A DNA stretch of 28,289 nucleotides from a virus. The DNA is taken from IMG/VR virus record IMGVR_UViG_3300010430_000377, positions 1-28,289 of that record; one strand, written 5' to 3'. The position numbers and the translations under genes were made by a program. This document shows, piece after piece, positions 1-15,271 of this stretch. Below the pieces are notes generated by a model, which worked only from the letters and a program-made list of their open reading frames with translations, did not search any database and had not been told where the DNA came from. Each line of letters opens with the position of its first letter. The stretch's first letter is position 1.

Positions 1-201
1 AGGAAACTTGTCTAGAAGCTTGTTTCCAGAGGAGGGATAGTAACTCATATCCCATCGTCTTATGCAGTGACGACACAACTGACACAGAAAGACTGCGCAT
101 CCTTGATGATTTGTTCATCAACTAAACATTTGGGCTTTGTCGTAATCCCACTAACGTTTGGCAGTGATTTTTGGGGTCAGCCAAACAACACCATCTAACA
201 A

Positions 202-273
202 GCGGGTAAGGGGAGTTGCACCCCTACTTTAAGCTTGGCAAGCTCACGTGCTACTGTTAAACACCATACCCGC
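202..273 (-). tRNA. tRNA-Gly(GCC)
   Basis: Full cloverleaf: acceptor GCGGGTA with TACCCGC, T-stem AGGGG/CCCCT, anticodon stem TGAGC/GCTTA and loop TTGCCAA, giving anticodon GCC. The T-loop is TGCAACT (G at 55) and the D-loop has AG instead of the usual GG. No CCA is encoded. Last recognisable tRNA of the array in transcription order. Confidence 0.88.
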
Positions 274-277
274 AAAG

Positions 278-370
278 AGGTATCATCACGTCGGGGAGTT
301 TCGAACCTCCATGATAAATCAGGAAACTGGTCTGTCTCCATCTGAATCACTCAGCGTGTGCCTGATACCT
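278..370 (-). ncRNA. Structured RNA element with T-arm-like hairpin
   Basis: The ends pair perfectly (AGGTATCA with TGATACCT). Inside is a hairpin resembling a T-arm (loop TTCGAAA, one stem mismatch) and, 72 nt apart, CACGCTG and CGACGTG that could form an imperfect acceptor. No anticodon stem can be drawn, so a functional tRNA is unlikely. It shares a 21-nt segment (19 identical) with 4417-4437, so it may be part of a repeated non-coding RNA. The stretch 371-574 holds short hairpins and nothing I can name. Confidence 0.35.
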
Positions 371-574
371 CATCTTTTCAACTGAGGAATGTTCTGCAGA
401 AACTATCCTCTGTTGGGACGTGACATGCCCCATCACCGGGGAATACCCTAACGGTGGTGACATCACCGCTCCAGCCATACCTCACTGGAAAGGAGTGTGG
501 ACCAAGTTAAGTCGGTTCCACTTAGACTACTCGTGTAGTTTTGGTAAGGTTAACGAGCCGCCGCCTAAAGACAT

Positions 575-646
575 CCGGATGGCGAGATTTGCACTCGCTA
601 CAACAGTCTTATGAGAACTGCGCCTATCTACTTCGGCCTCATCCGG
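575..646 (-). tRNA. tRNA-Met/Ile(CAT), elongator type
   Basis: Acceptor CCGGATG/CATCCGG is fully paired, T-stem GCGAG/CTCGC, anticodon stem CAGTT/GACTG with loop CTCATAA. C1 pairs with G72, so this is not the initiator. CAT could be elongator Met or, if C34 is lysidinylated, Ile; the sequence cannot decide. T-loop TGCAAAT with a D-loop lacking GG. Confidence 0.85.
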
Positions 647-729
647 TTGGATGCGGAGCCCTACTTCCCGATTGCAGGACTCCTAGTTGATGAAATGTTA
701 CAGAGGTGTTCCCTGTAACGTCCCTTCAA

Positions 730-1107
730 TTAAACTGTTTGACTAGGTAGTTCTACCAAGCCTCCATGCACTTTAGCATGGCAATTCATACAAATGCATA
801 TGCACTTGGCTAGCTCCTTCTTGAGCCTGTCTACTGAATAGCGGTTCGCGCCGTCAGCAACGTTAAACTCTTTAGTTCCTGGGTCAATGTGATGAGCTAC
901 TAAACAACACGTAGTTGTTTCATCGCATACAGCACATCCTGTTTCTTTCCAGCTTTCCACCAACTTCCTAGCCGTATCTCTTCTACGTGCATCACTGCGC
1001 TTAGAAGCAGCTAGTTGCTTGGCACGATACTCAGAATCATTTTCGTAACGCATTTTGTTATACCTACGGTGGTAGGCTTTGCGCTCTTCTGGATCCTTAA
1101 TTGGCAT
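730..1107 (-). CDS. HNH endonuclease
   Basis: 125 aa. Two zinc-binding cysteine pairs (CAVC near residue 58 and CMNC near residue 107) bracket the HHIDP motif; the final CMNCHAKVH supplies the last HNH residues. The N-terminal third is basic and rich in Arg/Lys, typical of a DNA-contacting arm. This is the usual composition of a free-standing homing-type or nicking HNH enzyme in phage genomes. It starts 7 nt after the stop of the preceding ORF (1115-1444) and sits alone with it inside the tRNA array, so a selfish homing role is likely. I see no group I intron core around it. Confidence 0.85.
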   Translation of the reverse strand: MPIKDPEERKAYHRRYNKMRYENDSEYRAKQLAASKRSDARRRDTARKLVESWKETGCAVCDETTTCCLVAHHIDPGTKEFNVADGANRYSVDRLKKELAKCICICMNCHAKVHGGLVELPSQTV

Positions 1108-1114
1108 CGTTAGC

Positions 1115-1444
1115 TCACTTGCCGGTGTTTAGATAGTCACCATGACCTCTAGCGAACCGGCACTCACCTGTGGTATCCAACAAGTAGGGTGGATACGTAG
1201 TCTTGGATGGATCAAAGCTAAAGCACTTATCATCAACAGACCCTGGTGTGTCTGGACAGATCCAGATAACACAGTTGGCTGCTTGAACAAGCTCCACTCT
1301 GACCCACTGGGCGTTCTCGTTGGAGCGTACGAAGAGGAACAACCCGCTCTTACGAGCCTGGCCCCAAACTGCTTGCCACAGTTTGATGTCTCTTGGGTCT
1401 TCCTTAAGACGCTCACATCCGAAGTTGCCGCTGTACTGTCCCAT
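1115..1444 (-). CDS. Hypothetical protein upstream of HNH gene
   Basis: 109 aa, no family recognised. Composition is protein-like (hydrophobic core segment LVQAANCVIWIC, then an acidic/aromatic tail), and the stop is 7 nt before the HNH start, suggesting one transcript. The ATG at 1444 is the first possible start because an in-frame TAG lies 2 codons upstream; no strong ribosome-binding site is visible. Alternative frames across the same stretch have less protein-like composition. Confidence 0.55.
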   Translation of the reverse strand: MGQYSGNFGCERLKEDPRDIKLWQAVWGQARKSGLFLFVRSNENAQWVRVELVQAANCVIWICPDTPGSVDDKCFSFDPSKTTYPPYLLDTTGECRFARGHGDYLNTGK

Positions 1445-1474
1445 GACTACATCATAGGTGTGTGTATGGTGCAG

Positions 1475-1482
1475 GACAAGTA
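1475..1482 (-). repeat. Cassette motif 2, representative copy
   Basis: A-C-Y-TTGTC-like octamer that follows each motif-1 copy. Others at 1784-1790, 3889-3895, 4578-4583, 5152-5157, 5359-5365 and a weaker one (CTCGTC) at 5616-5620. Confidence 0.55.
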
Positions 1483-1505
1483 GTGATAAGAAGGGTTATC
1501 GTTTG

Positions 1506-1582
1506 ACTCGTGCTCTACTAACTGAGCTACACCCCCGGTTAAGGGGATGACGGGAGTTGCACCCGCGTCCACAAGTTGGAAT
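1506..1582 (-). tRNA. Circularly permuted tRNA-Gly(TCC)-like gene
   Basis: The two halves are in reversed order. Transcribed first (1582-1543): anticodon loop end TTCCAA, stem CTTGT, T-arm GCGGG/CCCGT with loop TGCAACT, then acceptor strand CATCCCC. Six nt later (1536-1506): acceptor strand GGGGGTG, TA, D-arm GCTC/GAGC with loop AGTTAGTA, then stem ACGAG. Acceptor (7 bp, one G-T) and anticodon stem (5 bp, one G-T) both form only if the halves are joined in permuted order. T33 followed by TCC gives a glycine anticodon. An ordinary tRNA-Gly(TCC) exists at 5434-5503. Lies between motif copies at 1585-1606 and 1475-1482. Confidence 0.6.
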
Positions 1583-1584
1583 TA

Positions 1585-1606
1585 GATGTATTCCTATCAA
1601 GCATTC
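1585..1606 (-). repeat. Cassette motif 1, representative copy
   Basis: GAATGC, 4-7 variable nt, GG(A/G)ATACAT or GG(A)TTACAT. Copies at 1585-1606, 1891-1912, 4101-4122, 4800-4821, 5251-5272, 5402-5424 and 5651-5670, all in the same direction. Confidence 0.8.
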
Positions 1607-1613
1607 CTGCGAT

Positions 1614-1686
1614 GCTCCCCCTGGGATTTGCACCCAGACTCTTCAGAGTTTGAATCTGACGCCTTTGCTAATTTGGCCAGAGGAGC
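1614..1686 (-). tRNA. tRNA with Leu(CAA) anticodon, short variable loop
   Basis: Acceptor GCTCCTC/GGGGAGC, D-stem GCC/GGC, anticodon stem TCAGA/TCTGA with loop TTCAAAC, T-stem CTGGG/CCCAG with loop TGCAAAT. The anticodon CAA reads UUG, but the variable loop is only 5 nt, whereas bacterial leucine tRNAs are class II with a long variable arm. Its charging identity is therefore uncertain. Confidence 0.82.
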
Positions 1687-1691
1687 GAGAT

Positions 1692-1773
1692 GGTCCTGGC
1701 GGGAGTTGCACCCGCACGCCCGTAAGGGCAGAAGGGTTTAAGCCTTCCGTGTCTGCTGTTCCACCACAAGACC
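1692..1773 (-). tRNA. tRNA-Leu(TAA)
   Basis: Class II tRNA: acceptor GGTCTTG/CAGGACC, anticodon stem GAAGG/CCTTC with loop CTTAAAC, long variable arm with a GCCC..GGGC hairpin, T-stem GCGGG/CCCGC and loop TGCAACT. The long arm is what leucine tRNAs normally have, in contrast to the Leu-anticodon tRNAs at 1614 and 2940. Confidence 0.87.
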
Positions 1774-1805
1774 GTATTTGGTAGACAAGGTATTGCAGAG
1801 AGTAG

Positions 1806-1877
1806 TTTTTACTGGGGACTCGAACCCTCATCTCCTGCCCTACGAGCAGGCGCATTATCCAGTTATGCTAAGCAAGC
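1806..1877 (-). tRNA. tRNA-like element, GTA in anticodon loop, acceptor unpaired
   Basis: Good D-arm (GCAT/ATGC, loop AACTGGATA with GG), good anticodon stem CCTGC/GCAGG with loop TCGTAGG, and a T-loop TTCGAGT on a weak 3-bp stem. The expected acceptor strands GCTTGCT and GTAAAAA do not pair at all, and position 33 is C. Either a decaying tRNA-Tyr or a gene whose acceptor strand is encoded elsewhere; it lies inside one of the repeated cassettes (1912 to 1784). Confidence 0.4.
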
Positions 1878-1919
1878 GTAGTTGGTGCTTGATGTATTCC
1901 CTACTGGCATTCTACCAAT

Positions 1920-1990
1920 GACCTATCCGGGACTTGCACCCGGTTTTTATCCTTGAAAGGGATGTCTCTTACTACATAGAGGAAAAGGCC
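1920..1990 (-). tRNA. tRNA-Glu(TTC)
   Basis: D-stem CTCT/AGAG, anticodon stem CATCC/GGATA (outer pair mismatched) with loop CTTTCAA, T-stem CCGGG/CCCGG with loop TGCAAGT. The acceptor GGCCTTT/ATAGGTC has one T-T mismatch and one G-T pair. Confidence 0.75.
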
Positions 1991-1995
1991 GAGGT

Positions 1996-2067
1996 GGCGG
2001 GAGTTTGATGCCAAGTTACAGACTAGTCTTTGCTAGCAAGCGACTAAGCTTCTCTCTTGGCCCCGCC
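1996..2067 (-). ncRNA. tRNA-like element, degenerate
   Basis: A 7-bp acceptor-like helix (GGCGGGG/TCCCGCC) closes 72 nt, the length of a tRNA, but no T-arm or normal anticodon arm can be drawn; the centre forms TAGTC/GACTA around a 13-nt loop. May be a tRNA remnant or another folded RNA. Confidence 0.3.
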
Positions 2068-2077
2068 ATGTTGTCTC

Positions 2078-2390
2078 TTACATGAGAGTCACAGTCATCA
2101 GGTGTCCCTTAAGCGACGGCTTAGCCTTGCTCCGGGACAACGCAGTGAACTTGGCAAGCTTCTCTTCAGCAAGCCACATCATGGTCTTCTTCTCCCATCT
2201 TTTGAATAGGACTGATACCTTAACGTGATGTCCCTTATCTAGGAACTTCTTGGCCTGCTTTAGCTTGGTCTTCAGATCGTTCTCTGCCGTCTTAGGACGG
2301 AAGCGAATCTCTTTGACCTTGCGTGCCTTCTGCTTCTTCTTTTCTTGTGCCTTGTTAAAGGCACCTTGTTTGTTAAAAACTTCTCCTCAT
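2078..2390 (-). CDS. infC: Translation initiation factor IF3, C-terminal domain (needs +1 shift)
   Basis: The frame ending at TAA 2078 encodes a lysine-rich linker followed by KEIRFRPKTAENDLKTKL and FLDKGHHVKVSVLFK, the hallmark of the IF3 C-domain that binds the 30S subunit. The N-domain is absent; the C-domain alone carries most IF3 activity in other bacteria. No ATG, GTG or TTG exists in this frame upstream of the domain. The only well-placed start is ATG 2390, with AGGAG 7 nt before it, and that frame ends after MRRSF at TAA 2375-2373; skipping one T at TTT-T-AAC joins the frames to give 103 aa. Either programmed +1 frameshifting (an AGGAG lies just upstream of the shift) or one extra T in a T5 run. 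It sits among tRNAs and ends just before the element at 1996-2067. Confidence 0.8.
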
Positions 2391-2426
2391 CGTATGACTC
2401 CTGTCGTTGTTGAAAATGTAAGAGAT

Positions 2427-2499
2427 GACCCTAGGGGGATTCGCACCCCCGTTTCGAGCTTGAGAGGCTCGCGTCCTAACTAGACTAGACGATAGGGCC
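2427..2499 (-). tRNA. tRNA-Glu(CTC)
   Basis: Acceptor GGCCCTA/TAGGGTC, D-stem GTC/GAC, anticodon stem CGAGC/GCTCG with loop CTCTCAA, T-stem GGGGG/CCCCC with loop TGCGAAT. Anticodon CTC reads GAG. It ends 36 nt before the IF3 start codon. Confidence 0.88.
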
Positions 2500-2503
2500 A
2501 AAG

Positions 2504-2540
2504 AGTCCTTCGTTACTCCCACGAGTAACCCAGAAGGACT
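2504..2540 (-). other. Long two-part hairpin
   Basis: AGTCCTTC pairs with GAAGGACT and, inside it, GTTACTC with GAGTAAC around GTGG. No T-run follows, so it is not a standard terminator. A second hairpin at 2558-2593 pairs GTTGGTTGC with GCAACCAAC. Both lie between tRNA genes and may be processing or stability elements. Confidence 0.5.
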
Positions 2541-2613
2541 GTATGAGCACAGAACACGTTGGTTGCCTGCAACGCCAGGAGGCTGCAACCAACACCACAT
2601 CAAAAAACCCGTC

Positions 2614-2688
2614 GCTGAATGGCGGAATTGCACCACCGAACCATCAAGTTGCTTTGAATGTCCACATAGCCGTAACTAACTTGGCTTG
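2614..2688 (-). ncRNA. Degenerate tRNA-like element
   Basis: A clean T-arm (GGTGG/CCGCC, loop TGCAATT) is present, but the acceptor GCCAAGT/ATTCAGC has two mismatches and the anticodon arm (TCAA/TTGA, 6-nt loop) is irregular with no T33. Probably a tRNA pseudogene. The stretch 2689-2823 holds a perfect 7-bp hairpin TGATAGG/CCTATCA and nothing else I can name. Confidence 0.35.
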
Positions 2689-2823
2689 ATGTTCCCACGC
2701 GGTCCAGCAAGTGATAGGCTTTTCACCTATCAGGTCGATAACACTCTGGACGAGTCCGACTACCTCATCCCTGGCCTTCTGGTGGTTCGGGATTCCCCTC
2801 GGTCACCATCAATTGCCAACAAA

Positions 2824-2899
2824 AGTCCTGAGGGGACTTGAACCCCTGTCCTTTTAGTTCATTACGCTAAACGCTCTGGCCACACTGAGCTACAGGACC
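2824..2899 (-). tRNA. tRNA with 9-nt anticodon loop (AAT centre)
   Basis: Acceptor GGTCCTG/CAGGACT, D-stem GCTC/GAGC with GG in the loop, T-stem AGGGG/CCCCT with canonical loop TTCAAGT. The anticodon arm is 19 nt: stem TTTAG/CTAAA around CGTAATGAA. T33 followed by AAT would read isoleucine ATT with an unusual A34. The enlarged loop resembles those of frameshift-suppressor tRNAs; a 6th C-A opposition would restore a 7-nt loop. Confidence 0.75.
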
Positions 2900-2939
2900 A
2901 TCTCGTAGTGGGTTAACCATCCCTTGCAGGCACTACGAT

Positions 2940-3012
2940 GCTCTCCCCCGGATTTGCACCGAGAAACTCTACCGTCTCAGGGTAGCGGCTTTGCTAGTTT
3001 GCCCAGGAGAGC
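2940..3012 (-). tRNA. tRNA with Leu(GAG) anticodon, short variable loop
   Basis: Acceptor GCTCTCC/GGAGAGC perfect, anticodon stem CTACC/GGTAG with loop CTGAGAC, T-stem CTCGG/CCGGG with loop TGCAAAT. Its D-arm is nearly the same as in the CAA tRNA at 1614-1686, so the two are probably paralogues. The variable loop is 5 nt, unusual for leucine. Confidence 0.83.
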
Positions 3013-3140
3013 TTAATGCAGGGAGGATTCCAACTTCGTTCAAGTGCTCAACATCACCAATCCTATGGCAATTGCTAGGTAGCTCTGTCGAAGGTCTTCC
3101 GACAGTTCACCACCCCGCCTGACGATGGAGGCCCTGCAAT

Positions 3141-3228
3141 AGGGATACCAGGTAATGCTCCTGGCCTAGTCACCTTATCAGAGTGAAGATTGTGTATAAA
3201 TCAACCTCGCGCACTTGCGCCTATCCCC
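3141..3228 (-). ncRNA. Class II tRNA-like element without a TPsiC loop
   Basis: Acceptor GGGGATA/TATCCCT (7 bp, one G-T) is followed by a perfect T-stem CCAGG/CCTGG whose loop is AGCATTA. A 4-bp D-like hairpin GCGC/GCGC has only a 4-nt loop, the anticodon-like stem GATT/AATC carries loop TATACAC, and a variable-arm-like TCAC/GTGA hairpin is present. All helices are in tRNA order, but conserved T-loop bases and T33 are missing. The flanking stretch 3013-3140 folds into a long hairpin but shows no known RNA. Confidence 0.4.
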
Positions 3229-3808
3229 ATGTTGTGGAGCCAGTGATTTCCGCCACACCATCTACGTAACGACTTCGGGATTGAAGCCACGCATCTGTTG
3301 TCTTGTTATTGCACCCCATCCTGACTTAGCCCTTGTTAGGTTTCCGGCCTAACAACGGCAGAACACAAGCTCGGCAAAAAGTTTAAAAGGTAAACGCCAC
3401 ATACGTCAAAGATGGCGGTATTAAAAGTTGCCATCAAAGACACATTGTTTGTGCCACCGCCTTATACCGTCTGCTTCACCCACGGTAGTTCACTCCTACT
3501 TGTATTCCAACAGGACCACTGGAGGGTTGTGGACTCCACGTCTTTTTCGTCTAGCTCATCTTGGCTCCAGAGTTTCCTTACACCCCTATTTAGCAACAAC
3601 GCGCAATCTTATTTGGAACACGTTATCTTCCCCTTCAAAGGAGAACGTCTGGCGAACAGGATGTAGTTATTCACACCACCAACGTCTTGACGGATCTTCT
3701 TGCTGTTTGACGCAGACAACAACTCGTTTCACCATCTAGCACGAAAGGTAACTATTTAACGTCCGTTGGCACTCTGGGTGGATGGATTAAGCCCAAGCCT
3801 TCTGAAAA
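3229..3808 (-). ncRNA. Folded non-coding region, part of a possible large RNA
   Basis: 580 nt without a credible gene. It contains strong hairpins, e.g. TTGTTAGG/CCTAACAA with loop CCGGAAA (3333-3355) and GATGGC/GCCATC (3411-3435). Plus-strand ORFs here have non-protein-like composition. The orientation is assumed from the surrounding tRNAs. Large ornate phage RNAs next to tRNA arrays (GOLLD, ROOL) are one possibility; I cannot match either from memory. Confidence 0.3.
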
Positions 3809-3879
3809 GATCCGTCCCAGACTTGCACTGGGTTATCGAGGGTTGCAATCTCGTGCCGTACTACTATGGCTCACGAATC
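3809..3879 (-). tRNA. tRNA-Cys(GCA)
   Basis: Acceptor GATTCGT/ACGGATC, D-stem GCC/GGC with loop ATAGTAGTAC, anticodon stem CGAGA/CCTCG (one A-C) with loop TTGCAAC, T-stem CCCAG/CTGGG with loop TGCAAGT. Confidence 0.83.
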
Positions 3880-4828
3880 AAGTGGGTTGACAAGTATCGT
3901 TGAGAAATCTTACTGAGCCGCCACAAGACGTATGTCAGTAAGGTATATCTGAGAAGCAGTTATCTAGGAGGGAACTACTAATCTGCCTGTTTGATGATTT
4001 GACCAGTGGTTAGCCAGGCTATTCCACTGCCACTGGATTAGGCTACATCTTCTGTAACCGAGCAACCCGACTAGTAAGCCGGGGTCTATCGACCATAATT
4101 GATGTATTCCCAAACAGCATTCAACCCAATATGCCCATCACTGGACACAAATAACTCTGAGGGTTAGTTAGCCCTCAGAGCCATAGACAACCGAAAAGAA
4201 TCGGTGTGCGACGTAACTATGACGGGTAGCGAAATCCGTGTAACTGTTCCGTATGACCCGCACTACCTTAGGGCCGTAACCGGTTTCCCAGTCAACGCCA
4301 TCGGTTGTCTTTGCTGGTGTCGGGCACCAGCTTGTTTTGTTAACCCCTGCTGTCTCATCCGCACTTTCTAGGCTTTTCTCAACACGGGGCTTAATCCGCT
4401 GCTAGATTTCCTAGGAGTCTACATCTGAATCACCCAGGGGTAAGCAGATTCATCGGGCTCGCTTGGTATGCTCAGACCTACGCATTCCTGCCGAATTCAG
4501 GGCTTCCCTTAAGCAGTCGTCAGGGTCGCATTAACACCTAGGCCGAAGCCAGAGACTGCGTTAAAAAGATTGTGGCTGACAAGATTGGCGAGACAAGGTA
4601 ATTGCTTACCGCCGCCCTTACCGGGAAGATGCTTTAGGTAGAAAGGAGAGAAACACCCTAACATCAACTACCGGCAGTGGGCTGACACTCTCCATCTACT
4701 AGAGATGCAAGGTTTACCTACAAGACGCTATCTTGAAAGCTCCTCGGTGTCTGTCACTAGCCCCTCGCGGGACATCGCTACCTTAGGACCGTCATAGTTA
4801 TGTAATCCCAAACCAGCATTCAGCCTAC
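3880..4828 (-). ncRNA. Folded non-coding region with 23S rRNA-like segment
   Basis: About 950 nt with no credible protein or tRNA but many perfect stems: TTACTGA/TCAGTAA (3910-3941), CCAGTGG/CCACTGG (4003-4036), CTCTGAGGG/CCCTCAGAG (4155-4180), GCTGGTG/CACCAGC (4313-4331) and a GGC-TTCG-GCC tetraloop hairpin near 4545. Two repeated cassettes lie in it (4122-3889 and 4821-4578). The second contains, at 4800-4775, a near-perfect copy of the conserved 23S segment. The rest may be one or more large structured RNAs; no family identified. Confidence 0.4.
4775..4800 (-). other. 23S rRNA H69-H71-like segment
   Basis: Begins TAACTATGACGG and continues TCCTAAGGTAGCGA, 25 of 26 identical to the conserved 23S segment known as the I-CeuI site; upstream and downstream do not match 23S. 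Confidence 0.75.
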
Positions 4829-4902
4829 GAGCGTGAAGGGATTTGCACCCTCAACCGCATGATCGACAGTCATGCCCTCTACTAATTGGAGTGTACACGC
4901 CC
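4829..4902 (-). tRNA. tRNA-Asp(GTC), copy 1
   Basis: Acceptor GGGCGTG/CACGCTC, anticodon stem CATGA/TCATG with loop CTGTCGA, T-stem GAGGG/CCCTT with loop TGCAAAT. D-loop CAATTAGTA lacks GG. Followed 8 nt downstream by a copy of the recurrent GAATGC motif. Confidence 0.84.
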
Positions 4903-4995
4903 ATTATGTTCACTTTTGATGCATCTGGTCTTTCCTTCCATAGGAGCCATCGGAGCTACCGATTTTGGCTTGTGAACATCCTATGTTAGTCCGAC

Positions 4996-5070
4996 GCCCT
5001 ATACGGGGTTCGCACCCGTGGCCTCTACCTTGACAGGGTAGCACTCTAACTAAGACTGAGCTAATAGGGC
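4996..5070 (-). tRNA. tRNA-Asp(GTC), copy 2
   Basis: Perfect acceptor GCCCTAT/ATAGGGC, D-stem GCTC/GAGT, anticodon stem CTACC/GGTAG with loop CTGTCAA, T-stem ACGGG/CCCGT with loop TGCGAAC. It differs throughout from the Asp tRNA at 4829, so it is not a recent duplicate. Confidence 0.86.
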
Positions 5071-5176
5071 AGACGGATGGTTTTCGCTTCGTCGCAAGAG
5101 GCTTCTTAATGCCAAGTGCTTTCGTTTCGTCACCATCCTTGGATTGTGGCCGACAAGAGGTAGAAAGATGTTTTTT

Positions 5177-5252
5177 CGTGTGATACCACTTCACTACCTC
5201 CCGACGAATTGGGAGGGTCGGAATCGAACCGACGATCCGTCTTTATGATAGA
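5177..5252 (-). tRNA. Circularly permuted tRNA-Met(CAT) gene
   Basis: Transcribed first (5252-5209): TCT, loop ATCATAA (anticodon CAT), stem AGACG, variable GATC, T-arm GTCGG/CCGAC with loop TTCGATT, acceptor CCTCCCA and A73. After 5 nt (5203-5177): C then GGGAGG, TA, D-arm GTGA/TCAC with loop AGTGGTA, A, CG. Joining CG to TCT builds a perfect 5-bp anticodon stem CGTCT/AGACG, and GGGAGG pairs with CCTCCC. C1 faces A72, an initiator-type mismatch, but the stem lacks the three G-C pairs of initiators. D- and T-loops are canonical. Lies between cassette motifs at 5251-5272 and 5152-5157. Confidence 0.68.
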
Positions 5253-5279
5253 TGTAATCCTTCAAGGCATTCGACCAAC

Positions 5280-5350
5280 GAACCCACAAGGATTTGCACC
5301 CTGACTTAGTGGTTTGGAATCACTCGTGCTGCTGTTAACACTATGGGAAC
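5280..5350 (-). tRNA. tRNA-Trp(CCA)
   Basis: Anticodon stem AGTGA/CCACT (one A-C) with loop TTCCAAA, T-stem CAGGG/CCTTG with loop TGCAAAT, D-arm similar to that of tRNA-Gly(GCC). The acceptor GTTCCCA/TGGGTTC has two adjacent T-T oppositions, which is unusual and may reduce function. Confidence 0.75.
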
Positions 5351-5433
5351 TTGCTGCCGACAAGTATTTGATCTAGATATTTTGGTCTTTTTGCATAAAA
5401 GGATGTAATCCAAATCTAGCATTCGGCATCAAA

Positions 5434-5503
5434 GCGGATACTGGGATTTGCACCCAGATCGAGAGCTTGGAAGGCTCACAGTCTACTGTTGACGTATACC
5501 CGC
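5434..5503 (-). tRNA. tRNA-Gly(TCC)
   Basis: Acceptor GCGGGTA/TATCCGC, anticodon stem TGAGC/GCTCT (outer T-T) with loop CTTCCAA, T-stem CTGGG/CCCAG with loop TGCAAAT. Shares its acceptor 5' strand with tRNA-Gly(GCC). Ends 9 nt before a GAATGC motif copy. Confidence 0.84.
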
Positions 5504-5679
5504 AGAGCGGATGCCAAAACATACTGTCTTGGAGTGCCAGGATCCCAAGTGGGGGATAGGGGGGATGGGTTGTTGTTAGGAACCCCGGCAGGGTCATCCG
5601 CGTATTTGGTGCATTGACGAGGAGTTAATGAGATGTTCATGTTTTCGCTTATGTAATCCCATCGGCATTCAATGCTACT

Positions 5680-5757
5680 ACGGGATCCGGCATGATCCGG
5701 TAATGACTGCTGTTACACGCATCGTTAGAGTACGTTTCACAACATCATCGCTCCCGC
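5680..5757 (-). ncRNA. tRNA-like element with shortened T-arm
   Basis: Acceptor-like GCGGGA/TCCCGT encloses 78 nt and is preceded by CCGG-ATCATG-CCGG where a T-arm would be. No credible anticodon arm. A GAATGC motif copy follows directly. Similar in style to the element at 3141-3228. Confidence 0.3.
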
Positions 5758-5762
5758 AAAAT

Positions 5763-5846
5763 TACGGGCCTGTGTCTTGAACACAGAGGGATGGCTGCTT
5801 CGTCCTGCCTCTTGAGAGGGAAGGTCTCTGCACCATCACGCCCGCA
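5763..5846 (-). tRNA. Class II tRNA-like gene, anticodon unclear
   Basis: Acceptor TGCGGGC/GCCCGTA (7 bp, one G-T) and a perfect canonical T-arm CTGTG/CACAG with loop TTCAAGA over 84 nt, a Ser/Leu/Tyr-type length. The middle does not fold conventionally: CCTC-TCAA-GAGG or AGAG/CTCT stems compete, and no 7-nt loop with T33 gives a clean stem. Confidence 0.5.
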
Positions 5847-5928
5847 TTGGGCCGCCTAATTGTAAATGATCGACTGACTAGGTAACTGGCTGCGTTCCGA
5901 AGACTCTTCACCAGCTACTGTATCAAAT

Positions 5929-6001
5929 GGCGGAAGTAGGATTCGAACCTACGGCCTCCGGGTTATGAGCCCGACGAGCTACCTGACTGCTCCACTCCGC
6001 G
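5929..6001 (-). tRNA. Initiator tRNA-fMet(CAT)
   Basis: Starts CGCGGAGTGGAGCAG as bacterial initiators do; anticodon stem TCGGG/CCCGG contains the three consecutive G-C pairs typical of initiators, loop CTCATAA. Position 1 is unpaired with 72 (C facing C). T-loop TTCGAAT and D-loop AGTCAGGTA are canonical. First tRNA of the array in transcription order. Confidence 0.92.
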
Positions 6002-6018
6002 ACGTTGTTTTGTTTCCT

Positions 6019-6154
6019 TCAGTGCTCCAAGTAGACCAAATCAGCTGCCTCCTGTGAAGCGTAAAATGCTGATTTCTTAAATACTTTGAAGCCCCCAAGT
6101 TATGTTTTCGTAACCCTCAGTGTAGCTGTCACCAACATGATGGTCAAGGAAAAC
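6019..6154 (-). pseudogene. Possible broken small ORF after the exonuclease gene
   Basis: Two adjoining frames encode protein-like text: one, in frame with and directly after the exonuclease TGA, reads HVGDSYTEGYENITWG; the other reads FKVFKKSAFYASQEAADL to a TGA at 6019. They join if one G is removed from the G5 run (6092-6096). No normal start codon is visible. Either a decayed gene or a homopolymer error. Confidence 0.35.
6119..6147 (-). promoter_or_regulatory. Candidate sigma70-type promoter for the tRNA array
   Basis: TTGACC, 17 nt, TACACT, about 120 nt before the initiator tRNA. The -35 is 5/6 and the -10 is 4/6 to consensus. It overlaps the possible broken ORF, so confidence is low. 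Confidence 0.3.
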
Positions 6155-7928: not shown

Positions 7929-7965
7929 TAACCAGTGACGGTTGTTGGCAGACGCACGTCAAAAG

Positions 7966-8387
7966 TGGAGGCGCGGGGAGTCGAACCCCGGTGTCTGGCT
8001 AGCCCAACAATGAGCTTCTACGTGTGTAGTTTCTCGATTCTATCCCCATCAGGTTCCAAGAAACCCAAACCTTTGATGGTTAAGCTCTGCGTTTCAAAAA
8101 TTCACTTGCTTTGTCGAGCGGTCTCCACAAGCTACATCCCGTCCTGTCATAACCTACCCACTTCTCATCACACGGAATAACGAGAATCAAAATGAGTATC
8201 GCAAGCTACGCTTAAGCGACTGCGAGGGTGGAGCCGACCAACGCGTCAGCGTCAGCCATGCTCAGCCCTGCAGGGATGTCAACGTTATCGTTGGCAATTA
8301 AAGTTTTGATCGGATGTTAAGGAGCCTTCCGATCAACTCCTACACGCAACGCACCAGGTACTACCAGGTCGATGCCATTTCGCCCCC
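7966..8387 (-). ncRNA. ssrA: tmRNA
   Basis: 422 nt. The 5' end GGGGGCGAAATGGCATCGAC matches the tmRNA signature, and the 3' end has a canonical T-arm (CGGGG/CCCCG, loop TTCGACT); the acceptor GGGGGCG/CGCCTCC pairs over 7 bp with one G-T. The reading frame starts at GCC 8295 and ends at TAA 8212: the 27-residue tag begins ANDNVDIP and ends STLAVA, a degradation signal close to the usual ALAA. CCA is not encoded. It rescues stalled ribosomes and tags their products; the tag is long compared with the common 10-15 residues. It lies 25 nt after the VWA gene stop and likely shares its transcript. Confidence 0.95.
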
Positions 8388-8412: not shown

Positions 8413-9186
8413 CTAAGCGTCGTCCTCAGTCTTCGTAGAGGTTACCACGTCAATGGGGTGTTCGCCAGCAGAAACTGTCTGACCACTAACGTCAACGCCT
8501 GCAGCAGTGTACTGAGCAACAGTCTGCTGTTGCACCTCAACTGAATCTGCGGTGCTCATGTGCCGTTGGTCAGCTGAGAAGTCCATCGATGGGGAGAAGC
8601 CCTTCTTGAGGTTACGAACGTTAGCGCTGCACGCAACGTAGGCATTCTGCACACCGATAGGACCAGATGTGTAGTTCATGGCGTGAGTGCCACGGATACC
8701 ATACTGCTGTGCCTCTGCGATAGCGTTCTGGTTCGCTGCCAGATAGATGATCTGCCAGTCCTCGTTGTTCTGCTTAGCCTGGATTAGCTCCAACACAGCA
8801 GAGCGAGTGAACTCCCTAGAGGCGTTCTCGTGACCATCAGTTACGATAACCAAGACAACCTTCTCAGGCTTCTCGTCCTCTGGCTGAGTAGTAATGTAAG
8901 AGGATGTGCGATTGATTGTCTTACCGATTGCATCCAGCAGCGCTGTGCTACCACGTGGTTGGAAAGTTTCTCTAGTGATGTCAGGCACCTCTACGATTGG
9001 GATGTTGTCATAGACAACATCATACTCAGTGTCGAACTGAGCGTAGGTGAACCTAACGTTCTCTGGGTCTTCCTTTTGGTCAGCCAGGAACGCGTTGATA
9101 CCACCGATAGTATCGTCTTGGATGGTTTGCATGGAACCGGAACGGTCCACAACCATAGCAATGAAGGTGCGCAAATTCTCAGTCAT
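8413..9186 (-). CDS. von Willebrand factor A-domain protein
   Basis: 257 aa. The N-terminus FIAMVVDRSGSMQ is a MIDAS DxSxS site; a threonine (RGSTALLDAIGK, near 79) and an aspartate (VIVTDGHENAS, near 114) complete the metal site. The C-terminal ~80 residues are low in hydrophobics and Gln/Ser rich. VWA domains bind partner proteins through a metal ion; in phages with TerY-like relatives the role is unknown. Start ATG 9186 has GGAGGA upstream and overlaps the stop of the preceding zinc-ribbon gene, so translation is probably coupled. Confidence 0.88.
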   Translation of the reverse strand: MTENLRTFIAMVVDRSGSMQTIQDDTIGGINAFLADQKEDPENVRFTYAQFDTEYDVVYDNIPIVEVPDITRETFQPRGSTALLDAIGKTINRTSSYITTQPEDEKPEKVVLVIVTDGHENASREFTRSAVLELIQAKQNNEDWQIIYLAANQNAIAEAQQYGIRGTHAMNYTSGPIGVQNAYVACSANVRNLKKGFSPSMDFSADQRHMSTADSVEVQQQTVAQYTAAGVDVSGQTVSAGEHPIDVVTSTKTEDDA

Positions 9187-9415
9187 CAGTCTCCTCCTTA
9201 GGAGTGTAGTGCAGGCAGATTGAACACGACTTGAGCCCTAGGCTCCTCCTATGGACCAAGACGCACTCACCATAAATCTTGCAGGCAAAGACCTTTGCCT
9301 TGATCTTAACGTTCTGTCAGCCCCGGCATTCTACTATGCGTAGAATGTCCTCGCCTCTAAAAACGCAATCTAATTTAGGACGAGACCGTGGCTTCTGGTT
9401 CCCAGATTTCGGCAT
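9179..9415 (-). CDS. Small zinc-ribbon protein with in-frame TGA (possible selenoprotein)
   Basis: 78 codons from ATG 9415 (AAGGTGG 9 nt upstream) to TGA 9179, with a single in-frame TGA at codon 33 (9319-9317). Protein text is continuous across it: FRGEDILRIVECRG, the TGA, then NVKIKAKVFACKIYGECVLV and SCSICLHY. The pattern C-x-x-stop ... C-x-x-x-x-x-C ... C-x-x-C is a phage zinc ribbon in which the TGA stands where the second Cys of the first pair belongs. A hairpin with loop GGTC starts 16 nt after the TGA, as in bacterial SECIS elements. It overlaps the DUF1508-like gene by about 40 nt and the VWA start by 8 nt. Alternatives: a Cys TGC/TGT to TGA mutation, or a sequence error. Confidence 0.65.
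9283..9300 (-). promoter_or_regulatory. Candidate bacterial SECIS element
   Basis: Stem AGGCAAA/TTTGCCT (7 bp) with apical loop GGTC, 23 nt from the TGA to the loop. The AGGUCU apex is the same as I recall for the E. coli fdhF SECIS, where the loop G and U contact SelB. Spacing is inside the 16-37 nt range described for bacterial SECIS. Confidence 0.55.
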
Positions 9416-9572
9416 ATGCGATGTCCACCTTCTTCAAGCGGGTGATAGCACGCTTAGCATCGCTCTTCCGAGAGTAGCCCTTGGACTGCGCTAACAGTGT
9501 GCCATTTTGATGGTAAAGATTCCATCGATACTTACCACAGTACAACTCAATTTCGAAACGAACAGCACTCAT
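9375..9572 (-). CDS. DUF1508/YegP-like small protein
   Basis: 65 aa. The pattern FEIELYCGKYRWNLYHQNG, then LAQSKGYSRKSDAKRAI follows the YegP-type repeat: a beta strand with aromatic W, NG turn, then S-x-GY and a helix. One repeat only, while bacterial YegP has two. Function of the family is unknown. It ends in TAA 9377-9375, inside the start region of the TGA-containing gene. Confidence 0.75.
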   Translation of the reverse strand: MSAVRFEIELYCGKYRWNLYHQNGTLLAQSKGYSRKSDAKRAITRLKKVDIAYAEIWEPEATVSS

Positions 9573-9601: not shown

Positions 9602-9835
9602 CTAATCGAAAAATGTGTCAACATCTTTCTGCAGCACGTAACCCACGTCGTGTCGGTAACTAGTCTCTACGTACTGAGGCGTTGGTCTTTCCCCGTATGG
9701 GTGGATGCCGCTTGTATCAATGTTCCTGCTACAAGCCCACTTGGAGAAGTCCTGTAGCTCAGTAGCATCACCTACTAAAGCACCGCTGGAGGTAACTCCG
9801 TAGAAGCGGAATTGCATTCTTGGCCAGCTGCTCAT
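9602..9835 (-). CDS. Hypothetical protein
   Basis: 77 aa, no family recognised. Aromatic and polar, no membrane segment and no cysteine cluster. Its ATG overlaps the stop codon of the preceding gene (9835), indicating translational coupling within the same operon as the reductase. Confidence 0.7.
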   Translation of the reverse strand: MSSWPRMQFRFYGVTSSGALVGDATELQDFSKWACSRNIDTSGIHPYGERPTPQYVETSYRHDVGYVLQKDVDTFFD

Positions 9836-10389
9836 TAGTTAGCTCCGTAGTATTCCCAAGAGGGGATATCAAACTTAGGGTCAGGATGGTCATCACTCCA
9901 TGCCACACCGTGGCCCATCGCTTCCATCGCTAAATAGTGTCCAAACAACTCCGGGGTTGGCTTGCGGTAACGTTTACCAGGAATCTGTAGAGCCGCCCAA
10001 TACATCTGATTGATGGTTGCTCTGTTGTTTTGCTCTAGTCTTCGGATGAAAGCTTTACCAGACCGTTTAGCTTTACGTGATGTAGGTGGAGCCTGGTTTT
10101 CAATAGGGCCTGGTTGTAACCCCGGCCCACCTTCTTCCTCTGCCCAGTTGGCCCAAGCTGTTAGGTGTAGCGCATCCGCAGCACCAGCCTGGGCCTCACT
10201 ACGAATGTCATCTACCTTCCTATCGGAAGGAGCATAAATTAGAAATGCAGCGCCTGGTGAGTTACCTGCCCTCTTCTCAGCATGTAGCCATCGTTTAGCG
10301 TCAATGTCGCTGCCAGTCTCCTGCCATCTCCTGTATAGAGCCCTACTGCTGGTATCAGCTTCGAATAGGTTATCCCACTTCAATTGCAT
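9835..10389 (-). CDS. Hypothetical protein downstream of NrdJ
   Basis: 184 aa, no family recognised. N-terminal half is helical and Ala/Arg rich, the centre has a proline-rich linker (PGLQPGPIENQAPP) followed by a basic patch (RKAKRSGKAF). Start ATG 10389 overlaps the reductase stop by 10 nt, so the two are translated together. Confidence 0.75.
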   Translation of the reverse strand: MQLKWDNLFEADTSSRALYRRWQETGSDIDAKRWLHAEKRAGNSPGAAFLIYAPSDRKVDDIRSEAQAGAADALHLTAWANWAEEEGGPGLQPGPIENQAPPTSRKAKRSGKAFIRRLEQNNRATINQMYWAALQIPGKRYRKPTPELFGHYLAMEAMGHGVAWSDDHPDPKFDIPSWEYYGAN

Positions 10390-12887
10390 TTAGTGAATCC
10401 GCAATCTGCACACTGAGGACAGCCATCTTGGTAAAGGATGTTTGGGCTGTCGCACTCTACACAGTTTACGGATGAACGAACCTTCTGTCCATTCTTGATG
10501 TATTTCTTCAGCACTCTAGCGATAACCTTGTTGAAGGCCATCAGCCCACCGTCTTTACCTAGTTGCTCCACTAGGAAGTCAATAGGTGTCCCGTGCCGTA
10601 AAGCGCTAGAAATGAGACGCGTAGTCCATCCCATCTCAGGAGTAGACAAGGCTTCCACGATGTCATCAATGATAATTGAGTCACCGTTCTTGCCGATGTG
10701 AAGACGATATTTCCCCTTGGCCTTTTTGATAAGCTTACCGCTCTTGTAACGCTTAGGGATAGATACTGCCCCAGGAAAGCCTCCGAAGAATTCGTAAGGC
10801 TCTCCCTCTAGAAGACCAACTACAGCGATGTAACTCTCACCCTTAACAGTTCGGTGGAAGATATCACACTCAAGGTCAGCAGGACGTTTAGGTGCTTGCA
10901 TCCTAACGATCTTCTGGGGGCGATCTGCTGTGCTTACTAGGGTCTTCTCAGCTGATAGCAGTACTCCGTCTCTGGATCCGTCTACGTAGACCGTGACACC
11001 TTTCAAACCGTTCTTCCAAGCATCTAGATAGATGTCTGCAACAACATCTGGTTTAGTTCCTCTGGGTAGATTGATTGTGGAGCTAATGCTGTGGTCGATA
11101 TACTTTTGTTCGATGCCTTGAAGCCTCACCCTTACAGCCGAGTCCACAGCAGCTGCCTCTACAAAGTAGTCAGGGAGGTTATCGGGGTCAGCACCCGGAA
11201 CATGGTCTAGGTAGTTCTGCACGTTGGCGTGGAACACATCGTATTCTTGCCAAGCATCTCCAAGATCATCCACGTAGTCTACACGGACATTATCATCAGA
11301 GCGATTGATCTTCTTACGTCTACGTCCACGGATCACATAGAGGGGCTCTACGCCGCTGGAAGTAGAGAAGCGGTTGAAGACCCTATTGGTCTTACTGCAG
11401 AGCGACACGGAGCCTGTGGGGGCCTGTGTGAGGCCCGCTATGTTCCTCCTACCGTGCTTGGCTACACGCTCCTGAATCTCAACAGGCAACCTCTTGATGA
11501 ATAGGTTATCCTTCTCAGTATCCCAGTCCCAAGCAGGGAACGGACCACGAGTAACAGCTAGATCGATGCTTGCGTTATAGACCTCGTTGCGGAACACGTC
11601 ATACAGACGATCTACGAACTTAAGGGCCGCATCTGTATCATACTTGATACCTAGCTGAGCTAACGTATCACCTAGTGCGTGTGTTCCTAGGCCAGTGCGT
11701 CTACCATCGGAGCCAGCCTTGTGAAGCTTCTTCCACAAAGATTCCTCGTGGGAGCTAGAGCACACAGACATGATGTTCTCAATACACTCAAGCTCTAGGT
11801 CAACTAGGTTGTCAGACATCTGCACTGCTATACCGATGTCGTTCTTAAACTTAGTCCAATCAAAGAAGGACTCACCACCTAGATTGAACGGGTGGTCTAC
11901 ATAACCAGTGAGGTTCATAGAGATGAGACGGCACGAGTCGTAGGGACTAAGGGCAATCTCACTGCAGGGGTTCGTGCTAGCTGTCTTGAACTGCGGGTAC
12001 GAATGCGCAGGAAGATAGCTAGTCATCGTATCCCAGAAGATACAGCCAGGCTCTGCTGAGTTAGTAGCTGCGTCTCTAGCTAGCTCCCAGACATCCCTAG
12101 CTCTGACCATCCTCTTGATTTTCGGAGTCTTGCTATCGACAGGCCAGCGTTGCTCATACTCAGTGTCGTTTACTACCGCCAGCATGAACTCATCGCTGTA
12201 ACGAACACTTATGTTAGCGCCGGTCACCTTCTTCTTATCAAGCTTCATCGTAATGAAGTTAGCGATATCCGGGTGGTGTACATCCATCGTGAGCATAAGA
12301 GCACCACGACGCCCAGACTGGCAGACCATACGAGTAACGTAGCTATAGAAGTCACAGAAAGACCACGCACCGCTGGTAGTCTTCGCTGCGTTGTTTACCT
12401 TCGTGCCCTCTGGGCGCAGAGTAGATACATCAAGTCCTACACCACACCGACGCTTCATCAACTGAGCTAGCTCTTCACCAGCCCTAATGATCCCCTCCAT
12501 AGAATCAGCTGGAGAGCCTATCACTACACAATTGGATGCGCTCATTACTTGGAACACATTCCCAATAGCAGCCATGGGGCTTCCCTGAGGGACTATGCGT
12601 TCGAAATTCTGGATGGCGTCTAGGTAAATTTGGTAGCGGTCGAAATGGTCAAGACCATACTTAAGAGAATCAATACGAGCAAACTCATACGCCAAACGCT
12701 GATGCATATGGTGCGGGTTACTCTCTACGTAGTCTCCGTTCTCATCGCGTAAAGCATACTTGTCTAAGAACACCTTCGTAGGAAGGTCTGCTCCATTGAA
12801 ATAATCGAGTGATGCTTTATGTGCTTCTTCGTATGTGAAACGACGGCTCAAGCTGGGACGGATCAAAACTCTCTTTGTGCTAACCAT
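10380..12887 (-). CDS. nrdJ: Adenosylcobalamin-dependent ribonucleotide reductase (class II)
   Basis: 835 aa. Reduces ribonucleotides to deoxyribonucleotides using coenzyme B12. Visible landmarks: NPCSE near residue 306 (active-site loop), TGLGTHALGDTLAQLG near 400, QAPTGSVSLC near 490, and a C-terminal zinc ribbon with CVEC, CPQC and CGFTKC. No ATP-cone or class I subunit pair is present, so it is the single-chain class II form. Free of oxygen dependence and of a second subunit, it is often found in large actinobacteriophages. Works with the dCMP deaminase to feed genome synthesis. Followed by small unknown genes in a tight operon. Confidence 0.93.
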   Translation of the reverse strand: MVSTKRVLIRPSLSRRFTYEEAHKASLDYFNGADLPTKVFLDKYALRDENGDYVESNPHHMHQRLAYEFARIDSLKYGLDHFDRYQIYLDAIQNFERIVPQGSPMAAIGNVFQVMSASNCVVIGSPADSMEGIIRAGEELAQLMKRRCGVGLDVSTLRPEGTKVNNAAKTTSGAWSFCDFYSYVTRMVCQSGRRGALMLTMDVHHPDIANFITMKLDKKKVTGANISVRYSDEFMLAVVNDTEYEQRWPVDSKTPKIKRMVRARDVWELARDAATNSAEPGCIFWDTMTSYLPAHSYPQFKTASTNPCSEIALSPYDSCRLISMNLTGYVDHPFNLGGESFFDWTKFKNDIGIAVQMSDNLVDLELECIENIMSVCSSSHEESLWKKLHKAGSDGRRTGLGTHALGDTLAQLGIKYDTDAALKFVDRLYDVFRNEVYNASIDLAVTRGPFPAWDWDTEKDNLFIKRLPVEIQERVAKHGRRNIAGLTQAPTGSVSLCSKTNRVFNRFSTSSGVEPLYVIRGRRRKKINRSDDNVRVDYVDDLGDAWQEYDVFHANVQNYLDHVPGADPDNLPDYFVEAAAVDSAVRVRLQGIEQKYIDHSISSTINLPRGTKPDVVADIYLDAWKNGLKGVTVYVDGSRDGVLLSAEKTLVSTADRPQKIVRMQAPKRPADLECDIFHRTVKGESYIAVVGLLEGEPYEFFGGFPGAVSIPKRYKSGKLIKKAKGKYRLHIGKNGDSIIIDDIVEALSTPEMGWTTRLISSALRHGTPIDFLVEQLGKDGGLMAFNKVIARVLKKYIKNGQKVRSSVNCVECDSPNILYQDGCPQCADCGFTKCN

Positions 12888-12895
12888 CTACTATC

Positions 12896-13681
12896 CTACG
12901 CTGTTACTAGCTGCTTTAACTTTGTTTTTGCTTTCTCCAGTAGACGTTTGGCCCACATAGCATAAATCCAGTCCAGTTCAAAAGAGATACTCCTACGAGC
13001 AGTCTTCAGCGCAGCAACAGCAGTAGTCCCTACCCCTGAGAAAGGGTCAACAACAAGGTCACCAGGGTTAGTGAAGACCTTGATTACATCCTCAAATAAA
13101 GCGTCAGGCTTCTTTGTGGGGTGCAGTATGTCTTGTTCCGTATTGTGGTAGAAGATGCCATCCTCGTAGCCCTTAGCTACTAGACGCCTTCCACACTCGC
13201 TACAAAAGCGCTCGTCAGCTAGCTCACCAGGGACGCAGCACTTCCGTGTTCTAACAGGAGCACCGTCCATGTGGAACGTCCATGAAGCTCCAGGCTTCAC
13301 AGCGTAGAGAGCATACTCCATACGCCCTATGACACGTCTGCTCATGTTACGAGGGATGGGATTGAACTTATACCAATGCAGGGGGCTCTTAACATCCATT
13401 CCCAGGATACGAAGAGCCTCTGATATGGTGGTCATGTTCTTCCAGTCGTTCCAGATGACAATAGCGCCACCAGGCTTGAGAGCATCAACCGCAGCTTTAA
13501 GCCACCCTACTTGATCGAACCCACCATCCCAGGAGAAGTCGATACCGCGTCTTCCCATCGTATCTAGGTTGTTAGGACGGCTAGTGTTGTAAGGTGGATC
13601 TGTAAGGACCAACGCCACAGACTCTGGTGCGAGCCTTTTGAGTAGGCGGAATGAATCCCCGCAGTAGATGCCCTCTTTCAC
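12896..13681 (-). CDS. DNA methyltransferase, DPPY type
   Basis: 261 aa. Catalytic motif IV DPPYNTS near residue 28 comes first and the AdoMet-binding motif DPFSGVGTTAVAAL near residue 217 last, the order of beta-group N4-cytosine/N6-adenine methylases. A cysteine-rich insert (CCVPGELADERFCSECGR) probably binds zinc. No restriction partner is adjacent, so protection against host restriction or regulation is more likely than a full RM system. 8 nt separate it from the reductase. Confidence 0.9.
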   Translation of the reverse strand: MKEGIYCGDSFRLLKRLAPESVALVLTDPPYNTSRPNNLDTMGRRGIDFSWDGGFDQVGWLKAAVDALKPGGAIVIWNDWKNMTTISEALRILGMDVKSPLHWYKFNPIPRNMSRRVIGRMEYALYAVKPGASWTFHMDGAPVRTRKCCVPGELADERFCSECGRRLVAKGYEDGIFYHNTEQDILHPTKKPDALFEDVIKVFTNPGDLVVDPFSGVGTTAVAALKTARRSISFELDWIYAMWAKRLLEKAKTKLKQLVTA

Positions 13682-13683
13682 GA

Positions 13684-14253
13684 CTATACCCTACATCCAG
13701 CCCAGTACTTGGGCTCAACATCGATGACGGCATAACCTTCATCTTGAACATCTGCTAATTTGGTTCCGTCTGGCAGTCTCCAATGAAGCTTGCGAACCAC
13801 CTGACGTTCCCTCCCCGTGGCTAAGCATACCAGGGTAACTGAGACCTCACCAGCCTGGGCAAGCAAAGGTGAGCAATTCGGACAATACAAGGACTTACAG
13901 TTGGGTCGGTGGTAACGTGGGCCACCGCATCTACTACAAGATCCTACTCGATCTTTTTGCCTGTAACAAGATGGACAAATAAGTGCTGGTGCGTTCCAGC
14001 TTTCTATGTGGTGCTTGTCATCGACCTGACAGTGAGGGTATTGGCATTGGTTGCCTTTAGTCTCTTTGTTGCGCTTCTTCTTGCGCTCGTTGTACCAACC
14101 GTTGGCCTTACTGACAGCCCTGTTCTTCTCCTTACGGTAGGCAATCCTACAACCCGGAGAACAATAGAGACGCTTGTTTGCTAACGAGCCTGGACCCCAA
14201 ACAATCTCAAACAACGCACCGCACTGAGGATAGTTGCAACGTCTTGTTTTCAT
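13684..14253 (-). CDS. Cysteine-rich zinc-finger protein
   Basis: 189 aa with at least 16 cysteines in CxxC-like groups: CNYPQC, CSPGC, CQYPHC, CPSC, CSRCG, CPNC. A basic segment (YNERKKKRNKETKG) sits between the first and second clusters. Several treble-clef/zinc-ribbon units in tandem suggest nucleic acid binding. Ends 2 nt before the methylase start. Confidence 0.75.
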   Translation of the reverse strand: MKTRRCNYPQCGALFEIVWGPGSLANKRLYCSPGCRIAYRKEKNRAVSKANGWYNERKKKRNKETKGNQCQYPHCQVDDKHHIESWNAPALICPSCYRQKDRVGSCSRCGGPRYHRPNCKSLYCPNCSPLLAQAGEVSVTLVCLATGRERQVVRKLHWRLPDGTKLADVQDEGYAVIDVEPKYWAGCRV

Positions 14254-14295
14254 CTGTTACCCCAAGCGATCCTCACACAGTATACCGTACATGCT

Positions 14296-14333
14296 GGGGC
14301 GGGGGTCTAGGAATTAACCCAGACCCCCGCCCC
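14296..14333 (-). terminator. GC-rich intergenic hairpin
   Basis: Perfect 13-bp stem GGGGCGGGGGTCT/AGACCCCCGCCCC with a 12-nt loop between the acidic-protein and zinc-protein genes. No T-run on either side, so it may act as a Rho-assisted terminator, a processing site or an mRNA stabiliser. Confidence 0.5.
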
Positions 14334-14356
14334 GCGCTAAGCTCGCTGGAAGGCGA

Positions 14357-15271
14357 CTACTCTTCGGTAGTCACATCCTCGACGGTGTTAGAAATCCACT
14401 CATCGCGCATCTCATCGAACTGCTCCACCAAGACGTTGGTGAAGGCGAAGACAGGCGCGATCTTACCACGCCGCTTCACAGCCCGCTTCTCAGACACGTT
14501 GATGTTGAGGACATACTTGCCCCCACGCGGACGCTTGACACCGCCGCCAGCCCTGGAGTCGTAATCCAGGTCGAAGCCAATGGCCTCCAAGCAGCGAGCG
14601 GTAACCAGGAGGTGAGAGATGTCCTCATACTCCTGCACGTGGGCGTAATCATCACCCACCAAAGCGGTGACCTCATCGAGAGAAGGAACACCAGTCTCCT
14701 CGTAAGAAGAAGTAGTGGTAGTCTTGGGCTTGTTCTTGGAACCCTTGGGGCGACCACGACGAGTAACAGGCTCTTCAGCCTCTTCCTCTTCCTCGTCATC
14801 TACCTCAACGGAATCCTCATCCTCGTCAAGCTCCTCTTCTTCCTCTTCCTCTTCTTCCTCCTCTTCCTCGTCGGACTCCTCCTCTAGGTCGTCCTCTTCT
14901 TCTTCCTCGTCTTCCTCTTCCTCCTCGTCAGAGTCGTCCTCAAGGTCGGCGTCGTCATCGTCCTCAGCCTCAACCTCGTCTTCGTCCTCGTCGGTATCCT
15001 CGTCCTCAAGCTCCTCAAGCTCCTCTTCCTCAAGCTCCTCTTCCTCTTCCTCAGCGAAGCGACCCTGAGCCTCAAGAGCGCTGTAGAAACGCTGCTTAAT
15101 GTTCTTCCGCTTCACCAGTCGCTGGATCAGGCTCTCAAAACGAGGGCTGTCCACCGTGTTGTCCTCAAGGAACGCTTCGAAGATGTCTCGAACAGCATCA
15201 GCCTTGGCGATACTGTACTTCTTGATGAGGGTGTCGAGCCACTTTGGCAGCTTAGTCGTTGTCTTACTCAT
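14357..15271 (-). CDS. Highly acidic protein with AT-hook
   Basis: 304 aa. Residues 1-70 form a helical, basic domain; about 72-165 are almost only Glu/Asp/Ser; RRGRPKGSKNK near 170 is an AT-hook; the C-terminal 120 residues are a mixed-composition domain. Such acid stretches mimic DNA or hold basic proteins, and the AT-hook binds the minor groove, so a DNA-organising or packaging-associated role is possible. Upstream TTGCCT/TATATT could be a promoter (19-nt spacing), with GAGGAG before the ATG. The plus strand shows a mirror Ser-rich ORF, which is a shadow. Confidence 0.75.
   Translation of the reverse strand: MSKTTTKLPKWLDTLIKKYSIAKADAVRDIFEAFLEDNTVDSPRFESLIQRLVKRKNIKQRFYSALEAQGRFAEEEEEELEEEELEELEDEDTDEDEDEVEAEDDDDADLEDDSDEEEEEDEEEEEDDLEEESDEEEEEEEEEEEEELDEDEDSVEVDDEEEEEAEEPVTRRGRPKGSKNKPKTTTTSSYEETGVPSLDEVTALVGDDYAHVQEYEDISHLLVTARCLEAIGFDLDYDSRAGGGVKRPRGGKYVLNINVSEKRAVKRRGKIAPVFAFTNVLVEQFDEMRDEWISNTVEDVTTEE

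Follow-up and report, generated by a model that had tools for sequence, protein, structure and literature searches.

Bacterial selenoproteins with a coding-region SECIS element, such as E. coli fdhF, have an in-frame UGA followed by a hairpin, and they have Cys-containing homologues. Virus-encoded selenoproteins that depend on the Sec machinery of the host are also known, namely the poxvirus glutathione peroxidases of molluscum contagiosum and fowlpox (PMC8310308), but these are captured host enzymes of known function in eukaryotic viruses with a SECIS of the eukaryotic type. Among phages, genes for tRNA-Sec have been reported in Basilisk-like phages (PMC6145125) and in huge wastewater phages (PMC10747093), which suggests that phages use selenocysteine, although these reports name a tRNA gene and no selenoprotein gene. 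Searches of open full-text papers returned no report of a phage selenoprotein, although subscription papers and preprints were mostly outside these searches and priority is therefore not certain, and a 2026 review of prokaryotic selenoproteins does not mention viruses or phages. Here, we describe a small cysteine-rich gene of an uncultured bacterial virus in which a stop codon appears to be read as selenocysteine. Like fdhF, this gene has an in-frame UGA, a hairpin within the published bacterial SECIS (bSECIS) limits, an AGGUCU apex, and Cys-containing homologues. It differs from fdhF in that it is a phage gene of a protein family that we did not see named among those of bacterial selenoproteins, its stem is a plain 7-bp hairpin without an evident bulged U, and the host machinery has not been identified. 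It differs from the phages with tRNA-Sec genes in that there is a candidate selenoprotein with a SECIS-like hairpin but no tRNA-Sec in the DNA analyzed.

The stretch of DNA that we analyzed (the window) is a linear IMG/VR viral record of 28,289 bases, IMGVR_UViG_3300010430_000377. The original prediction described an ORF with a single in-frame TGA at codon 33 in place of the second Cys of a zinc-ribbon CxxC, a 7-bp hairpin with a GGTC apex downstream of it, and gene ends that overlap the neighboring genes. We find that this description is accurate, although it did not state the strand. The ORF lies on the minus strand, whereas a plus-strand reading of the same interval is not open. It reads MPKSGNQKPRSRPKLDCVFRGEDILRIVECRG-U-QNVKIKAKVFACKIYGECVLVHRRSLGLKSCSICLHYTPKEETDD-stop, with one internal TGA. 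The hairpin, AGGCAAA-GGTC-TTTGCCT, is a perfect 7-bp stem with a 4-nt loop, and it lies 16 nt (stem) or 23 nt (loop) after the TGA, exactly as had been stated. The start of the gene overlaps the upstream gene by 41 nt and its end overlaps the start of the downstream gene by 8 nt.

Coordinates of the candidate selenoprotein gene, its surroundings, and features of related loci (window coordinates unless a locus is named)
Feature	Position	Strand	Description
Candidate selenoprotein gene	9179-9415	-	78 codons read through one internal TGA; terminal TGA stop at 9181-9179
In-frame TGA	9317-9319	-	codon 33, proposed selenocysteine codon
SECIS-like hairpin	9283-9300	-	loop at 9293-9290
Truncated ORF	9317-9415	-	32 aa, expected if the TGA is read as stop
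Upstream neighbor	9375-9572	-	65 aa, DUF1508 (PF07411); syntenic in L013
Downstream neighbor	8413-9186	-	257 aa, von Willebrand factor A (VWA) domain; syntenic in L013, 49% identity
Rest of the shared gene block	9602-12887	-	g77, g184, adenosylcobalamin-type ribonucleotide reductase (RNR)
ORF-poor stretch	1-6100		13 tRNA genes by Rfam, none with anticodon UCA
tRNA gene	5279-5350		Trp CCA anticodon
YrlA-like matches	5144-5277 and 1482-1598	-	33.9 and 33.5 bits (gathering score 69), next to tRNA genes
tmRNA	7963-8387	-	Rfam RF00023, 100.8 bits; predicted 27-aa tag
Glu/Asp-rich ORF	14357-15271	-	304 aa, long low-complexity stretch, between structural genes and the methylase; 37% identical counterpart in L008
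TGA homologue	L013:1492-1725		TGA at the same codon
Seven-Cys domain before glycosyltransferase (group 1) domain	L077:3595-5226 and L115:1720-3060		in viral contigs
Split terminase and portal genes of relatives	L008:1097-2289 and 4807-5777; L009:10321-10892 and 13449-14503; L010:2469-3556		insertions at several places, probably inteins or introns; the window's copies are uninterrupted

Given that the hairpin had been proposed as a SECIS element, we next asked how often such a structure would arise by chance. Both this hairpin and that of the relative described below satisfy the published bSECIS constraints, which are a loop of 3-9 nt, a stem of 4-16 bp, a G among the first two loop bases, a distance of 16-37 nt from the UGA, and an MFE of -7.5 kcal/mol or lower (PMC13188914); the predicted MFE values are -9.6 and -10.1, with unremarkable z-scores of -0.96 and -0.73. 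These rules are permissive, since a hairpin that passes them follows 450 of 1010 TGA triplets in the window, so this match alone is weak evidence. However, a stem score of 7 or more follows only 34 of 1010, and the AGGTCT apex on such a stem occurs once. When the same peptide was recoded at random with the phage's own codon usage, a stem of 7 bp or more was obtained in 3.7% of trials and this exact hairpin in 0.1%. The predicted resemblance of the apex to fdhF was also borne out, as E. coli fdhF has the apex GCAGGTCTGC after its Sec TGA, while fdnG has AAGTCT. The E. coli fdhF element has a bulged U in its stem. No bulge appears in the predicted fold here, but a bulge is not part of the general bSECIS model, and on this feature the comparison gives no answer either way.

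To determine if the TGA is conserved, we searched for homologues. Relatives of the terminase led to a second IMG/VR record, IMGVR_UViG_3300009149_003717 (G007; the locus is referred to here as L013), which encodes a 61%-identical product with one TGA inside. The order of the genes around it (RNR, g184, g77, a DUF1508-like gene, this gene, VWA) matches that of the window, apart from one extra 144-aa ORF between g184 and g77 in G007. In the alignment, at 60% protein identity, TGA stands opposite TGA at exactly the same codon. Of the 39 nucleotide differences after the TGA in the main aligned block, 10, 7, and 22 fall at the first, second, and third codon positions, respectively, and pN is 0.23 and pS 0.81 in the read-through frame, whereas pN exceeds pS in both other frames. 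The part before the TGA behaves in the same way (pN 0.28, pS 0.59), indicating protein-coding selection on both sides of the TGA. A pseudogene or a sequencing error, in which an ancestral TGC or TGT was lost or misread as TGA, is conceivable because a single substitution separates TGC from TGA and both records are metagenome assemblies. This reading is very unlikely, since the same TGA is found in two independently assembled and diverged records, the sequence after it is still under purifying selection, and the hairpin is unchanged. Likewise, two separate small proteins, with a real stop after codon 32 and a restart downstream, are mechanically possible because both ORFs exist. However, the first possible start codon after the TGA is TTG at codon 53 in the window or GTG at codon 54 in L013, yet codons 34-52 are among the best conserved, and the homologues are one continuous domain across the site. 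This explanation is therefore very unlikely as well, and ribosomes must cross the TGA.

The original prediction had named TGA-bearing homologues without a hairpin as evidence that would count against it. In the one TGA homologue found, the 18-nt hairpin is identical letter for letter (18/18 nt). Its six codons (codons 39-44; AAG GCA AAG GTC TTT GCC) are all unchanged, while the synonymous codons on its borders (37, 38, and 45) differ. With codon identity in eight neighboring gene pairs as the background, the expected probability of six identical codons of six is 0.0085. This exact conservation is a stronger point than the fit to the bSECIS rules.

It had also been proposed beforehand that homologues be compared for Cys codons at this position. 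A sequence pattern that leaves the third base of the critical codon free (TGN) found five further, more distant homologues in viral contigs: L072, L089, and L078 as separate genes, and L077 and L115 in front of glycosyltransferase domains. By our reading of its ORFs, which include terminase-, portal-, and head-like proteins, L089 looks like a phage contig. All five carry TGC at the codon and have best stems of only 0-5 at the place of the SECIS. Because the pattern required TGN at the site, homologues with other codons there could not be found by it, and two other hits of the pattern, L016 and L017, were chance matches. The family can be written as C..RGE...C..CGG...KVFAC..HGEC...C..C, and the five Cys homologues share all seven Cys positions and the VF.C...G.C motif. 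Across the seven sequences, 10 columns are invariant, including all seven Cys/Sec positions (C17, C30, 33, C45, C51, C64, and C67). A profile built from the five Cys proteins alone finds both TGA genes (E 2.5e-11 and 9e-15 among the fetched loci) and aligns the TGA with Cys. Pairing of TGA with Cys together with a SECIS is an accepted criterion for new bacterial selenoproteins (PMC12013277).

Other searches for homologues gave little. Scans of viral contigs with the single protein and with the alignment returned no further TGA homologue; only one TGA homologue was found. No homologue was found among INPHARED phages, PLSDB plasmids, or the genome contigs searched, the read-through protein had no match in PHROGs, and its matches in Pfam were all below threshold. 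An AlphaFold model based on seven sequences was too weak to use (mean pLDDT 58.5), and no fold search was run.

ALTERNATIVES. Given that phages with reassigned stop codons are known (for example code 15, PMC9523058), we considered local or global reassignment of TGA to a sense codon (code 4-like) in this phage group. Global reassignment is contradicted: 8 of 29 main genes end in TGA, as does this gene itself, and no tRNA with a UCA anticodon was credibly found. A scan for other TGA codons conserved between the window and its relatives gave many hits, but all except this gene lie in antisense shadow frames of real genes, so that on the coding strand this is the only internal TGA conserved in frame. 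We consider reassignment highly improbable. In the course of the RNA searches, we also found a phage-encoded tmRNA with the long predicted tag ANDNVDIPAGLSMADADALVGSTLAVA, and two matches to the Y RNA-like family YrlA that are possibly diverged phage Y RNAs.

Programmed read-through of the UGA without selenium, in which a near-cognate or suppressor tRNA (Trp, Cys, or Arg) decodes the UGA at a set rate with help from the hairpin and gives a short and a long product, would explain the conservation of the downstream frame and of the hairpin, and the phage carries many tRNAs, including one with a Trp CCA anticodon. This explanation remains possible but is unlikely. The residue replaced is an invariant Cys position across the seven homologues, the classic Cys/Sec exchange, and Trp or Arg there should break the site; in addition, no UCA-anticodon tRNA was credibly found, and the hairpin fits the spacing and apex of a SECIS.

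We next looked for selenocysteine machinery. No tRNA-Sec was found above cut-off in the window or its relatives; in the window there were only a tRNA-Met-like match and two weaker ones, all below cut-off, and a 'tRNA-SeC' with a 653-nt intron on the other strand from a permissive ARAGORN run is noise. No sel gene was seen in the window. The presence of SelB in the host, which had been named as a test, was not examined because the host is unknown, and SelA, SelC, and SelD are likewise not shown. A search of genome contigs for terminase relatives gave one 28% match in an Atribacteria MAG, which is too distant to name a host, and the best SelB-like match of that MAG was below the cut-off.

Taken together, these data support the interpretation of the original prediction that the gene encodes a selenoprotein, and selenocysteine is the best explanation, in which we have high confidence. 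In this view, the gene encodes a small phage selenoprotein of a cysteine-rich, zinc-ribbon-like family, and the hairpin in the phage mRNA would be bound by the host's SelB carrying Sec-tRNA-Sec, so that the ribosome inserts selenocysteine at UGA33 and continues to the 78-aa product; without it, a 32-aa fragment would be made. Our analysis itself establishes that the read-through frame is under protein-level selection, that the TGA sits at an invariant Cys position, and that the hairpin is conserved beyond what the protein requires. Decoding by SelB and selenocysteine as the residue are instead deduced from the TGA/Cys exchange and the SECIS-like hairpin, as there is no biochemical evidence and the selenium content of the protein was not measured. 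That the machinery would be the host's follows from the lack of a tRNA-Sec above cut-off in the phage records. More weakly inferred is that the CxxU pair is a redox or metal site of higher reactivity than the Cys form. The function of the protein is open. The seven conserved Cys/Sec suggest a zinc-ribbon-like metal site, and CxxU is a typical redox pair, so a thiol/selenol redox role is our guess; the nearby ribonucleotide reductase makes an electron-donor role conceivable, but the Cys relatives fused to glycosyltransferases speak against a link limited to RNR.

It is likely, though less certain than the selenocysteine reading itself, that a lineage of uncultured phages has evolved a selenoprotein of its own by Cys-to-Sec exchange in a phage-borne protein family, together with a de novo SECIS element, and so depends on the host's selenium machinery. 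If so, it would be the first phage selenoprotein gene supported by TGA conservation, Cys homologues, and a conserved SECIS hairpin. Standard gene callers cut such genes at the TGA, so others may sit unnoticed in viral databases, across which the TGA/Cys plus hairpin test used here can be run. Since a related virus keeps both the codon and its RNA signal unchanged, some bacterial viruses probably borrow their host's selenium-insertion machinery. Selenocysteine insertion works only in hosts with SelA, SelB, SelC, and SelD, so a phage gene that needs it ties infection to selenium-using bacteria and would predict host range.
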